Below, in pieces: positions 5,956 through 46,581 of a stretch of DNA of 64,000 nucleotides. The stretch is from the NCBI GenBank assembly GCA_019636695.1, contig JAHBXD010000001.1, positions 117,661 through 181,660 of the forward strand, written 5' to 3'. Numbering within the stretch: the stretch's first letter is position 1; every line of letters starts with the position of its first letter. The stretch is from Phycisphaeraceae bacterium. GTDB lineage: Bacteria > Planctomycetota > Phycisphaerae > Phycisphaerales > UBA1924. The notes beneath the pieces were generated by a model that saw only the letters and a list, made by a program, of their open reading frames with translations, was not told the DNA's origin and searched no databases. Made by a program: the position numbers and the translations under genes.

Positions 5956-6792
5956 TTACCACCTTCTCCAGTCCGGCACATATCCGGGGCTGTTCGTCAC
6001 CGTCACCGAGCCGATCGCATCCCACCCTTCCATCAGCGCCCCCGCCCGGTGTCCCTGCACGCTCCCATCCGCCGCCGCGATCTGCGCGTGTCGCCGATGT
6101 CGGAACGCCGTCGTCGGAGAGTCATTTACCCGCCACTGCCCCCCCATATACAGCATCGGTGGGTCAAGCAGCGCCGTGTTCATCGGCAGCCCACCGCCGA
6201 AGCCTCCCAGCAACGCATCCGCGAACACGAAAAGACTTGATGGGTGCTCCACATCCGCAATCCGCCGCCACGGCCGATGCCCGATGCTCGAGGCCCACCC
6301 CGGCGTCTTGCCCGGACTCAGGTAATACCCGTTATACCCGTACGTGCTCGTGATCGAACGCGATGGCCCCTGTGGCCGATACGTCTCCCACGGCTGGTTC
6401 GGGCACTCATACACCGAAGAAGCGCTCAGCGTCGATTCCAGATACGGCGCAAGAAATCCCGCCGCGTGGTCGGGCGGGTCGGTCGCCGTGCCGTGCGACC
6501 CCCACCAGAAAATCTGCGGCCCTGAGCCGATGTCCTTCAACTCCCAGTACGCCAGCGGCATCGCCCGATCGCCGTGCTCCCCGGCATACATCATCCATCC
6601 CATCGCCATCTGGCGCAGGTTCGAAGCACACCGCACCCCCCGGGCCGACTCGCGCGCCCCCCCCAGCGCCGGCAGCACCATCGCCAGCAGCAGAGACGAA
6701 ATCGCGATCACGACCAGCAGTTCGATCAGCGACATCCCGCGCGCTTGACCGCGCTGTATGCCCCTCGATATCGTGCTGCGCACCTTCTTCAT
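5956..6792 (-). CDS. Type II secretion/type IV pilin-like protein (pseudopilin, H-X9-DG type)
   Basis: Secreted or inner-membrane pseudopilin of 278 aa. A short basic leader ends in Gly19, followed by the class III signal MSLIELLVVIAIS with Glu at position +5, which is the prepilin peptidase cleavage/methylation site. A hydrophobic helix follows, then a globular domain with SARGVRCASNLRQMAMG. Near the C-terminus is the HAQIAAADGSV stretch of the planctomycete 'H-X9-DG' family. The ATG at 6792 has GGTGAG upstream and lies only 4 bp after the stop of the PQQ/dockerin gene, so it is the third gene of the cobalamin-riboswitch operon. Proteins of this type are very numerous in planctomycetes with unknown roles; here the context suggests a part in a B12-responsive surface system. 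Confidence 0.85.
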   Translation of the reverse strand: MKKVRSTISRGIQRGQARGMSLIELLVVIAISSLLLAMVLPALGGARESARGVRCASNLRQMAMGWMMYAGEHGDRAMPLAYWELKDIGSGPQIFWWGSHGTATDPPDHAAGFLAPYLESTLSASSVYECPNQPWETYRPQGPSRSITSTYGYNGYYLSPGKTPGWASSIGHRPWRRIADVEHPSSLFVFADALLGGFGGGLPMNTALLDPPMLYMGGQWRVNDSPTTAFRHRRHAQIAAADGSVQGHRAGALMEGWDAIGSVTVTNSPGYVPDWRRW

Positions 6793-6796
6793 GTGC

Positions 6797-8365
6797 TCAC
6801 CGGCGCCGCAACTCAAAACGCTCGTTGCGCCGAAGTTCAAACTCCAGCAGTTCAACATCGCCCGCGTTCACCGCCCCCGACCGGTCCACATCCAGCGAGC
6901 CTTCGCCCCGATGCCACGAGATCAGGTCTTCCACATCGCGTCGGCCGTCCCCGTTCACATCCGGTTCACCCGGCCCCGGCCCGCGCGCGGTAAGCCCCTC
7001 AGGGCCGATGGTGTACACCCCGCGCCCCAGCACCGCGCAAGGCCCGCCTCCGCCCTCGAAGATCGTCGCAAAGCCCGCGGCATCCGGCGTTACCCCGAGG
7101 TCAAGCACCACCAGGTGCGTATACGCCGCCCCCGTCGTCGATCCCTGGCCCATCCGCCCGCTGAGCAGTCGTGCGTGCCCCCCGCTCCCCGTCACCAGCG
7201 GATGATGCGTCCACCCGCCCGCAACCATGAACTCTCCCGCATCCAGGCGCCCGTTCAGGTTCGCATCGACCCACGAATCCAGCGCGGAATCCCACACCAA
7301 CGACGCCGACAACCCATGATCGACATAACACTGCACCGAAGGCACGGTCCCGAATCCCCATAACCCCCCGCTCAGCACCACCCGGCCGTCATCCAGCACC
7401 ACAGGCGTCGAACTGGTCCGATTGCTCGGAACGCTCCACATTAATGCGCCGTCGTCCACGCGCACTTTCACCAGGTTCGCCGAAAGCACCCCCCCGGAAA
7501 ACGCGTACGACCCCGCATAGGCCGCCAGTCCCTCGGGCCGGTATGCCAGCGTCACACCGCCGTAAAAACCGTGCCACTCCGGGTTCGCTCTCCGCCAGCG
7601 TTCGACCGGCGGCTCCTCCGCCGCCGCATCGAACGCCAGCAGTTCACCGATCCCAACACCGTCCAGCCCTGTCGTCGCCACCACCACCACCCCGCCCGCC
7701 GCCGCGGGGGATGATCCCGACGCCGATCCGATCTCAACGCTCCACACCGCTTCACCCGGATCAAACGGGTTTCGTGAACCCTCTCGGGGCGAGAGATTGA
7801 TGCACCACAACCGCGAAACCGACCCGAACCCCCCGTAATCCGTCACAAACGCCCGCCGCTTGCCGCGATCTCCCGTGATCGCGGGCGAAGCATTCACCAC
7901 CGGCGCGGGCAGCACGAGTTCCCACGCCTCTTCGCCATCGTCGAGGCGATACCCGAGCATCCGCGTACCCGCCCCAACGACAAGCACGCCGCTCTCCAGG
8001 TCGATCGCCGGCGAAGCCCACGAATCCAGCACGATCGATGGTGCCGGGCGCACCCACACCACGCTCCCGTCCGACGCATCCACACAGAGCACGCGCGCGG
8101 CCCCTCCGACCCGCGCGAGCACATAAATGCGCCCTTCAGCCCCCACCGGCGCGCTCGGGCCAATGAAACTGATCGCTTCCCCGCCGGGAAGGTGACTAAG
8201 CGTCCACCGCACGGGTTCCAGTGTCAGCGCATACGGCCGCGCCCCCGACCGCGCGGCCGACCCCTGCACGCACGGCCACTCGGTAATGCCCGGAACCGGC
8301 TGCGCCGACGCTCGGCCTCCCCAGGCGAGCGCCGACGCAACCAAGACAACGCAATGCGTCCTCAT
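6797..8365 (-). CDS. Secreted PQQ-like beta-propeller protein with C-terminal dockerin-like EF-hand repeats
   Basis: 522-aa protein with a Sec signal peptide (about 1-21, ending ASAQ). The body (about 50-420) consists of repeated strands of the PQQ-like/quinoprotein propeller type, such as RVLCVDASDGSVVW and MLGYRLDDGEEAWEL, with internal EF-hand-like loops such as DANLNGRLDAGEF. The C-terminus carries a dockerin-like pair of calcium loops, DVNGDGRRDVED (about 469) and DVDRSGAVNAGD (about 492). No quinone-enzyme catalytic signature was recognised, so a binding or scaffold role is more likely than dehydrogenase activity. Its ATG overlaps the stop of the upstream PEP-CTERM gene (ATGA). It is the second gene of the cobalamin-riboswitch operon. 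The Bacteroides surface B12-binding protein BtuG is also a beta-propeller, a suggestive parallel but not evidence of homology. Confidence 0.8.
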   Translation of the reverse strand: MRTHCVVLVASALAWGGRASAQPVPGITEWPCVQGSAARSGARPYALTLEPVRWTLSHLPGGEAISFIGPSAPVGAEGRIYVLARVGGAARVLCVDASDGSVVWVRPAPSIVLDSWASPAIDLESGVLVVGAGTRMLGYRLDDGEEAWELVLPAPVVNASPAITGDRGKRRAFVTDYGGFGSVSRLWCINLSPREGSRNPFDPGEAVWSVEIGSASGSSPAAAGGVVVVATTGLDGVGIGELLAFDAAAEEPPVERWRRANPEWHGFYGGVTLAYRPEGLAAYAGSYAFSGGVLSANLVKVRVDDGALMWSVPSNRTSSTPVVLDDGRVVLSGGLWGFGTVPSVQCYVDHGLSASLVWDSALDSWVDANLNGRLDAGEFMVAGGWTHHPLVTGSGGHARLLSGRMGQGSTTGAAYTHLVVLDLGVTPDAAGFATIFEGGGGPCAVLGRGVYTIGPEGLTARGPGPGEPDVNGDGRRDVEDLISWHRGEGSLDVDRSGAVNAGDVELLEFELRRNERFELRRR

Positions 8366-9174
8366 CGCGAGCCTCTCCGGCGCCGCGATATCACCATCAC
8401 GCCCGCTCCGAGCACCAGCGCCGCCGCCGGCCCCGGCACCGGACGCACAATCGCAAACCCGTCGATCTCCACCGTAAAGGGGTTGTCCATCGGGTTGCTG
8501 ATCCGCACATACAGGATGAAATCAAACCCGACCAGGCCGATATCCACCCCCGTGCCTCCGCCCGATCCGTCATACCCCGCCACGATTTCCGCGAATGTCA
8601 ACCCTGTCGCGACAAACGAAGGATCTACCGGCTTCGTGAAATCCGTCTCGATCATCCCCCGCACCGGCGAAAATGGGTCCGTCAGATCGCGATACCCCAG
8701 CGTCGGGTGCAGCCCGTCCGCCGCCGCGTTCGGAATCGTCCTCCACTCGTCCCCGTCCTGCGATACTTCGATGATCCCTCCGTCAGCCGACAGCATCCCC
8801 GCCCGTCCGTGAGGAAAATCGTCATCAAAATAAAACGAGTTGCCGAACACCAACAGGTCGATGCCGAAAGGATTGAGCGGGTCATTCACGATCGGACGAT
8901 CGAACGCCACGATCAGGCTTCCACCGCGGCCGATCGACACAATTTCCGTCTCCATCCACGCGCTGTTGAACGGCGTGACCGCCCCCGGAAAAATCCCCTC
9001 ACCCGTAAATCGCGTCGGCTCTCCCAGCGCTGCCGTCGGGTCGTCATACCCCGGCGTCACCCCGATCCCCGCGTCATAGAACCGAACTTCGCTCGCCCAA
9101 GGGTGATCGCCGCTCGCCCCGCAACTCCCCACCGCAATCCCTACCGCAACGCAAAACGAAAAAACCCGTTCCAT
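8362..9174 (-). CDS. Secreted PEP-CTERM-like protein, first gene of cobalamin-riboswitch operon
   Basis: 270-aa exported protein. It has an N-terminal signal peptide (VFSFCVAVGIAVGS), then a conserved beta-rich region with VTPGYDDPTAALGEPTRF, GGSLIVAFDRP and FGIDLLVFGNSF. The last 25 residues form a PEP-CTERM-like sorting signal: VPGPAAA, a hydrophobic helix, then RRRR. The start at 9174 is supported by GGAG six bases upstream. The stop overlaps the ATG of the propeller gene. A cobalamin riboswitch lies about 220 bp upstream on the same strand, so expression should fall when B12 is plentiful. The domain resembles 'cell surface proteins' that I associate with B12-regulated loci, but a specific function is not established from sequence; cobalamin capture is inference. 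Confidence 0.8.
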   Translation of the reverse strand: MERVFSFCVAVGIAVGSCGASGDHPWASEVRFYDAGIGVTPGYDDPTAALGEPTRFTGEGIFPGAVTPFNSAWMETEIVSIGRGGSLIVAFDRPIVNDPLNPFGIDLLVFGNSFYFDDDFPHGRAGMLSADGGIIEVSQDGDEWRTIPNAAADGLHPTLGYRDLTDPFSPVRGMIETDFTKPVDPSFVATGLTFAEIVAGYDGSGGGTGVDIGLVGFDFILYVRISNPMDNPFTVEIDGFAIVRPVPGPAAALVLGAGVMVISRRRRGSR

Positions 9175-9360
9175 CACCACTCCGTGCCGCAGCCGCGGCA
9201 TGCACCCCGAACGCGCGGGATGGCCCCCCGACCTCGACGGTCTGGTCGCCTCGCGAACTCTCGGGTGCTTCCGGCCGGCGCGCCACGGGGAGCCTGCGGC
9301 ACGCTTCGCCGGCGCCCCTGCCCATTCGGGCCTCGCGAGGGCAACCATGCGCCGGTTCTT

Positions 9361-9380
9361 CCTTGGCCTGCTGGCCAAGG
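9361..9380 (-). promoter_or_regulatory. Hairpin between riboswitch and operon, possible expression platform
   Basis: A perfect 8-bp inverted repeat (CCTTGGCC/GGCCAAGG) with a 4-base loop lies 12 bp downstream of the riboswitch core in the direction of transcription. No U-run follows, so it is not an intrinsic terminator by itself. It could take part in an alternative pairing or Rho-linked control. Confidence 0.35.
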
Positions 9381-9392
9381 CCCGGCGTCGTC

Positions 9393-9581
9393 GGCAGGTC
9401 TTCCGGCTCGGGGCCTGCACTCTCAACCTTCCCACGGCCCGGGTCTGACCCCGGTCAACCGCAGTGGTCTTTCAGGTTCGCTTGGCGAACCCGAGAGCGC
9501 AGCACATGCCCCTTACGGCGGCGCGTCCGCGGTGGCTTTTCACCACACTTCCCTCTTGTGCCCGTCACTTACACAGGCACC
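9393..9581 (-). promoter_or_regulatory. Cobalamin (B12) riboswitch
   Basis: Read on the minus strand, the conserved cobalamin aptamer elements occur in the expected order: GGTGCC at 9581-9576, GGGAAGTG at 9553-9546, GGTGAAAAGCC at 9544-9534, a G/C-rich core, the B12-box-like GACCACTG at 9469-9462, GGGAAGG near 9434, and the terminal GCCGGAAGACCTGCC ending at 9393. Order, spacing (about 190 nt) and orientation match the class. It faces the surface-protein operon beginning at 9174. In this family ligand binding normally lowers expression of the downstream genes. Confidence 0.93.
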
Positions 9582-9593
9582 GACGATGCAGCC

Positions 9594-9622
9594 AGCATAA
9601 CCAACCGCAAGGCACCCCGCAA
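9594..9622 (-). promoter_or_regulatory. Probable sigma-70-type promoter for the cobalamin-riboswitch operon
   Basis: On the minus strand, TTGCGG (9622-9617) and TATGCT (9599-9594) are separated by exactly 17 bases and sit 13 bases before the first riboswitch element. Position and spacing fit a -35/-10 pair. Assignment is by eye. Confidence 0.5.
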
Positions 9623-46483: not shown

Positions 46484-46490
46484 AGGAAAG

Positions 46491-46581
46491 CGGAGCAGGA
46501 GGGATTCGAACCCTCGGTACAGGCGATTACCCGTACACCGGTTTAGCAAACCGGCCCCTTAAGCCGCTCGGGCACCGCTCC
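46491..46581 (-). tRNA. tRNA-Ser (GCU anticodon)
   Basis: 91-nt class II tRNA. The acceptor stem GGAGCGG pairs with CTGCTCC, with one G-U pair. The anticodon loop TTGCTAA is closed by CCGGT/ACCGG and reads anticodon GCU (serine AGC/AGU). A long variable arm (GTACGGG with CCTGTAC) marks it as a serine tRNA, and the T arm is GAGGG-TTCGAAT-CCCTC. The 3' CCA is not encoded. A hairpin follows. Confidence 0.97.

Follow-up and report, generated by a model that had tools for sequence, protein, structure and literature searches.

How do planctomycetes that require vitamin B12, that seemingly do not make it and that mostly lack a TonB-dependent receptor obtain it? The question is raised here by an operon in a 64,000-nucleotide (nt) stretch of contig JAHBXD010000001.1 from a Phycisphaeraceae bacterium (hereafter the window), in which a cobalamin riboswitch precedes genes for a surface-type protein (gene 1, product P0001), a secreted propeller (gene 2, P0002) and a pseudopilin (gene 3, P0003). 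An earlier note on this DNA had suggested that the three form an unrecognised cobalamin capture system at the planctomycete surface, and this idea is now well supported by the BtuH fold of gene 1, by its linkage to the riboswitch in 109 of 116 relatives, by the absence of the B12-synthesis protein CbiC and by a B12-dependent MetH in the same genome. We put the probability that the operon is a cobalamin-riboswitch-controlled corrinoid capture system at about 0.78.

The aptamer ahead of the genes, formerly placed at 9393-9581, was recovered with somewhat wider limits by a covariance search with cmscan (Table 1); the match spans model positions 1-189 of 189 with an E value of 1.1e-19, against a gathering threshold of 31.5 bits, and a search of the 3.1-Mb assembly gave no other RF00174 hit. 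The tight linkage of the three genes is equally real: genes 1 and 2 overlap in an ATGA (8362-8365), and 4 bp (6793-6796) separate genes 2 and 3. The promoter proposed at 9594-9622 fares less well, for TTGCGG and TATGCT, 17 nt apart, agree with the consensus at about 7 of 12 bases by eye, but a consensus scan reports no promoter there. In the leader of about 200 nt, which folds with a z-score of -1.9, a scan of the operon strand reported no terminator-like site; because the leader folds strongly and a GGAG precedes the ATG of gene 1, translational control is a possible candidate mechanism. Control of a B12-independent isozyme was considered as the role of the operon and rejected, no such gene being present in it.

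Table 1. Features of the riboswitch-controlled operon, in window coordinates
Feature	Positions	Strand	Remarks
Cobalamin riboswitch aptamer RF00174, operon leader	9376-9599	-	cmscan, 85.6 bits
Leader, aptamer to gene 1	9175-9375	-	Strong hairpins; GGAG motif ahead of ATG
Gene 1, P0001, 270 aa	8362-9174	-	Signal peptide; BtuH-like domain, ~24-244; C-terminal PEP-CTERM-type helix, 249-267
Gene 2, P0002, 522 aa	6797-8365	-	Secreted PQQ/BamB-type propeller; weak dockerin-like tail
Gene 3, P0003, 278 aa	5956-6792	-	Type II secretion/type IV-like pseudopilin; large head; H-X9-DG/DUF1559 type

One explanation of such a locus would be that a decayed riboswitch, or one placed by chance, lies beside unrelated surface genes, as the unrecognised expression platform, the weak promoter and the patchy occurrence of gene 2 might suggest. 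The distribution of the genes among 150 relatives speaks strongly against it. The riboswitch occurs in 138 of them and a P0001 homologue in 116; in all but seven of these 116, a riboswitch on the same strand precedes the homologue by less than 2 kb. In 66 of the linked cases the distance is within 900 nt (median, 203 nt); in the other 43 it is larger (median, 1.35 kb), and another secreted, partly propeller-like protein precedes the P0001 homologue. A pseudopilin follows on the same strand within 4 kb in 38 of the 41 riboswitch loci read in detail, as opposed to none on the opposite strand and one in the 3 kb upstream in the corresponding controls. Named loci, which come mostly from metagenome-assembled genomes (MAGs) of Phycisphaerales, had the riboswitch wherever this was tested (13/13). 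The arrangement also extends beyond this order: the complete chromosome of the named strain Lacipirellula limnantheis carries, in this sequence, the riboswitch, a pseudopilin, a second secreted protein and a P0001 homologue, and records titled Pirellula and Pirellulales show the same order. We therefore reject chance juxtaposition or decay, to which we attach next to no credence. Of 80 named loci, 71 have P0001 and the pseudopilin and 27 have all three genes; the operon core is thus gene 1 plus the pseudopilin, to which a subclade adds gene 2.

What gene 1 encodes is best seen in its predicted structure. An AlphaFold2 model built on 29 sequences (alignment A3) has a mean confidence (pLDDT) of 89.8 and consists of a beta-rich domain followed by the C-terminal helix. 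In VIA-align, a second look at Foldseek's own candidate list, the top match is BtuH2 of Bacteroides thetaiotaomicron (BT_1956, 7biz_B; Z 13.5, root-mean-square deviation 2.8 over 144 residues, 31% identity) and the second is the BtuH domain of BtuG1 (BtuGH, BT_1490, 8blw_B residues 388-660; Z 13.0), with PAPP-A, CBM32-like lectin domains and fucolectin next at Z 10.4 or less. Sequence comparison leads to the same proteins by way of intermediates. Among the riboswitch-linked homologues, one from the same family (L079:2502-3689, genome G010) matches 8blw at 4.8e-17 and 7biz at 5.2e-13; P0001 is tied to this class by blastp, at E values of about 4e-7 to 5e-15 for most members; and a joint profile, A4, matches 8blw at 2e-13 and 7biz at 9.6e-9. 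Judged by its modelled structure and through these sequence intermediates, gene 1 is a BtuH relative. The claim that the operon holds no known B12 gene consequently stands for btuB, btuF and cob/cbi and has to be given up for gene 1, as does the idea that its genes are unrelated to known B12 proteins. In BtuH2, B12 is contacted by Gln333, Asn399, Phe401, His476, Tyr510, Trp511, Trp577 and Leu578 (PMC8941943), of which Asn399 and Phe401 align with N112 and F114 of P0001, N112 being at least 90% conserved in A3. The fold, the sequence link and the partly kept contact residues make corrinoid binding by gene 1 a likely prediction.

The structural matches that rank below BtuH could be read differently: lectin-like proteins and a pseudopilus might attach B12-starved cells to B12-producing partners or algae, with no binding of B12 itself. 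Carbohydrate-binding domains (CBM32, fucolectin, PAPP-A) indeed come directly after BtuH, and adhesion commonly involves surface anchors, propellers and pilin-like proteins. We nevertheless consider B12-responsive adhesion improbable, because the BtuH structures score clearly above the lectins, because sequence similarity leads through the intermediates to BtuH, and because in riboswitch operons of relatives the genes of this set are accompanied by BtuB, TonB genes or a BtuF-like gene. Such operons were found in order-level relatives, where the riboswitch is followed in one genome (L090, G114) by a pseudopilin, an RraB-like gene, a TonB-dependent receptor, ExbB and TonB; in another (L085, G137) by a PEP-CTERM protein, a pseudopilin, a Diphthami_syn_2 (DUF71) protein and a BtuF-like binding protein; and in a third (L093, G101) by a receptor, a DUF71-like protein and DUF6580. 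The best NCBIfam model for the L093 receptor is TIGR01779, the TonB-dependent B12 receptor, at 270 bits, which is below the equivalog cut-off. In L090 and L092, whose operons show no recognised BtuH-like gene, the pseudopilin stands directly behind the riboswitch and is accompanied by TonB-system genes. Given these riboswitch-linked neighbours, a BtuB-type receptor, TonB/ExbB and BtuF-like proteins, the surface proteins and the pseudopilin are tied by gene context to corrinoid uptake. A gene like thioredoxin reductase by eye also lies 2.5-7.4 kb after the riboswitch in four of the order-level relatives (L085, L089, L090, L097).

For its place at the surface, gene 1 had been credited with a PEP-CTERM anchor. 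The C-terminal helix, an exosortase in 31 of 31 genomes, that of the window included, and an operon-mate protein in a relative that passes the TIGR02595 (PEP-CTERM) cut-off with 21.4 bits all favour this, but P0001 itself scores 13.5 bits, under the cut-off of 16; from these signs we infer surface anchoring by a PEP-CTERM-type tail.

Gene 3 is a pseudopilin, as had been proposed, with PF07963 at 27.7 bits (cut-off, 21.2) and TIGR02532 at 24.5 bits (cut-off, 16.3). It shares the prepilin N terminus, the large head and the FRH...DG signature, which its whole family bears, with the DUF1559/H-X9-DG prepilins of planctomycetes, a large paralogous family with 68 members in Planctopirus limnophila (PMC10632474). 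Unlike its kin in general, P0003 is under a cobalamin riboswitch and belongs to a distinct orthologous set: in genomes with the gene-1 class, the best matches have E values of 1e-65 or better, and the best P0003 match genome-wide is the riboswitch-linked copy in 38 of 51 genomes. The locus offers a candidate role for one member of this large family. Several relatives, though not the window, have a small cysteine-rich open reading frame (80-105 residues, CxC...CxxC) behind the pseudopilin that is linked to the riboswitch (L076:6435-6677, L077:6774-7022, L079:4461-4778, L098:8038-8346 and, about 3.3 kb after the riboswitch, L081); by eye this frame resembles a BFD-type 2Fe-2S protein and is possibly a further operon member.

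Gene 2 was described as a PQQ-like propeller with dockerin-type calcium loops; the propeller is borne out (PQQ_2, PF13360, 2e-13), whereas the dockerin match stays below threshold (17.7 bits; cut-off, 22.9). Its model (pLDDT 89.4) most resembles YxaL (Z 37.8), Rv3035 (36.2) and BamB (about 33), which are of the eight-bladed type. A parallel to BtuG had also been drawn, and it found no support: P0002 resembles BamB/PQQ-type propellers, BtuG is absent among the structural matches listed for it, and no sequence link was found either. Propellers of sister operons have no BtuG match and no convincing relative in the PDB. The link to BtuG is thus unproven. Rv3035 was solved in complex with FecB (PDB 9p3f), and FecB falls, broadly speaking, into the class of substrate-binding proteins to which BtuF also belongs; we note this as a lead only.

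A capture system presupposes a host that needs what is captured. CbiC, precorrin-8X methylmutase, is required by both B12 pathways; it was found in none of 61 genomes, with seven control genomes positive, and the hosts are therefore probably without de novo B12 synthesis. Domain searches of the genome of the window (G000, 94% complete) show a B12-dependent MetH with all its domains, a B12-binding/MeaB protein and another B12-binding protein, as well as BtuF-like proteins and a BtuC-like FecCD permease that lies outside any btuCDF cluster. B12 is too large for ordinary porins. No TonB plug domain (PF07715) was detected in G000, with controls positive, and the same holds for 32 of the 37 family genomes and for six of six further genomes, including L. 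limnantheis. This scarcity in the family agrees with a 2012 survey that reported TonB and its receptors in just four of the planctomycete genomes examined (PMC3422733). In G000 the genes for the secretin GspD and the type II ATPase GspE are neighbours, and next to them, in divergent orientation, is a gene for a BtuF-like Peripla_BP_2 protein (L123:1075-6638; G000:C1:748074-753637). Its position may be due to chance but is suggestive, since the B12 operon includes a pseudopilin.

We posit that, when internal B12 is low, the riboswitch would permit expression of the operon, as is usual for this class. Gene 1, held at the surface by its PEP-CTERM-type tail, would bind corrinoids outside the cell through its BtuH domain; the propeller and the pseudopilin may help to present the bound corrinoid and to carry it across the outer membrane, probably with the secretin and the type II ATPase. 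Import would be completed by the BtuC-like permease with a BtuF-like binding protein, both encoded outside the operon, and the B12 could then feed MetH and the other B12-binding proteins. The part played by the pseudopilin could take either of two forms. (i) The BtuH-like protein may hand the corrinoid to a riboswitch-regulated pseudopilus and through the secretin, independently of BtuB and TonB, much as competence pseudopili bring in DNA. We propose this route because G000 has no detectable TonB-dependent receptor; if it is real, a large group of planctomycetes with a B12 requirement would be served by it. We give somewhat less than even odds to a pseudopilus that acts in uptake and not just in display, and lower odds to this route through the secretin. 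(ii) Gene 1 may capture B12 while the pseudopilin is a cargo-specific minor part of type II secretion, devoted to export or display, and B12 enters by a porin-like route. Pseudopilins do belong to type II secretion pseudopili, GspD and GspE are present, and the operon encodes secreted cargo (gene 1 and, in the subclade, gene 2). On the other hand, the accompanying secreted proteins vary or drop out while the pseudopilin persists, as where it stands behind the riboswitch with TonB genes and without a recognised BtuH-like gene (L090/L092), and one would not expect general secretion to require a subunit under B12 control. We hold a role in export or display to be a serious contender, at somewhat less than even odds.

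Several observations weigh against corrinoid capture or against import independent of TonB. For P0001, plain Foldseek gave weak matches only. No Pfam family and no direct PDB sequence match were found for it, and the profile of its own clade, A3, fails by itself to reach BtuH, so that the sequence link is transitive and homology rests on intermediates and structure taken together. Among the BtuH2 contacts, Gln333 is not kept in P0001 (most of the sister class keep an equivalent, within PAPGQ), and the remaining corrin contacts fall in loops that cannot be aligned to it. Pseudopilins are plentiful, with 17 to 147 first-look candidates per genome. TonB receptors are present in five of the 37 family genomes and in most of four other families in the order; the operon therefore does not strictly take the place of BtuB, and absence from a MAG can reflect incompleteness.

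Set beside known systems, the corrinoid capture that we propose is partly familiar. The capture proteins BtuH, BtuG and BtuJ have been described in Bacteroides together with BtuB (PMC8941943, PMC6143338, PMC10404256, PMC12751083). Gene 1 shares with BtuH the fold, the location under a cobalamin riboswitch and the Asn399 and Phe401 positions; it differs in lacking Gln333 and any recognised PKD or fused propeller domain, in its C-terminal helix of PEP-CTERM type, BtuH proteins being lipoproteins (PMC12751083), in having a propeller and a pseudopilin as partners in place of BtuB, and in belonging to a different phylum. With BtuGH the operon has in common a propeller and a BtuH-type domain under one B12 riboswitch, but BtuG is a seven-bladed, YncE-type surface propeller that works with BtuB, unlike the eight-bladed P0002. 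BtuJ and other DUF4465 proteins are likewise beta-jellyroll surface proteins of riboswitch-controlled B12 loci (PMC13398666, PMC12751083), and DUF4465 proteins occur widely, including in the Planctomycetes-Verrucomicrobia-Chlamydiae (PVC) group (PMC13398666); P0001 has no DUF4465 match, however, and its top structures are BtuH, not BtuJ. BtuH-type capture itself is thus already known, and what is new is a BtuH-type domain in a setting without BtuB and with a pseudopilin, which extends this mode of capture from Bacteroidetes to another phylum. We found no description in the open-access literature of a comparable planctomycete operon under a B12 riboswitch or of a B12-controlled pseudopilin. The riboswitch singles out a small conserved gene set, a BtuH-related capture protein and a pseudopilin, whose function is directly testable.

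The riboswitch is also linked to a second family of secreted proteins, which have the pattern GSGxN..A.VIDW...WGYRWDG and for which no match to a B12-related family was found. Its members come from Pirellulales and from other families of the order, and their genes often lie beside the pseudopilin (L086:9123-9824, L094:9352-10134, L097:4291-4875, L099:3113-3952, L202:3703-4668, L184:4100-4975). Operon-bearing records titled Leptolyngbya, Limnohabitans, Omnitrophota and Caulobacteraceae (L127, which is JABWBC010000191.1; L133, L143, L166, L199) look like mislabelled or mixed MAGs, not transfers. Elsewhere in the window, the sole tRNA found is an ordinary tRNA-Ser with a gct anticodon and a long variable arm, on the minus strand at 46490-46581.

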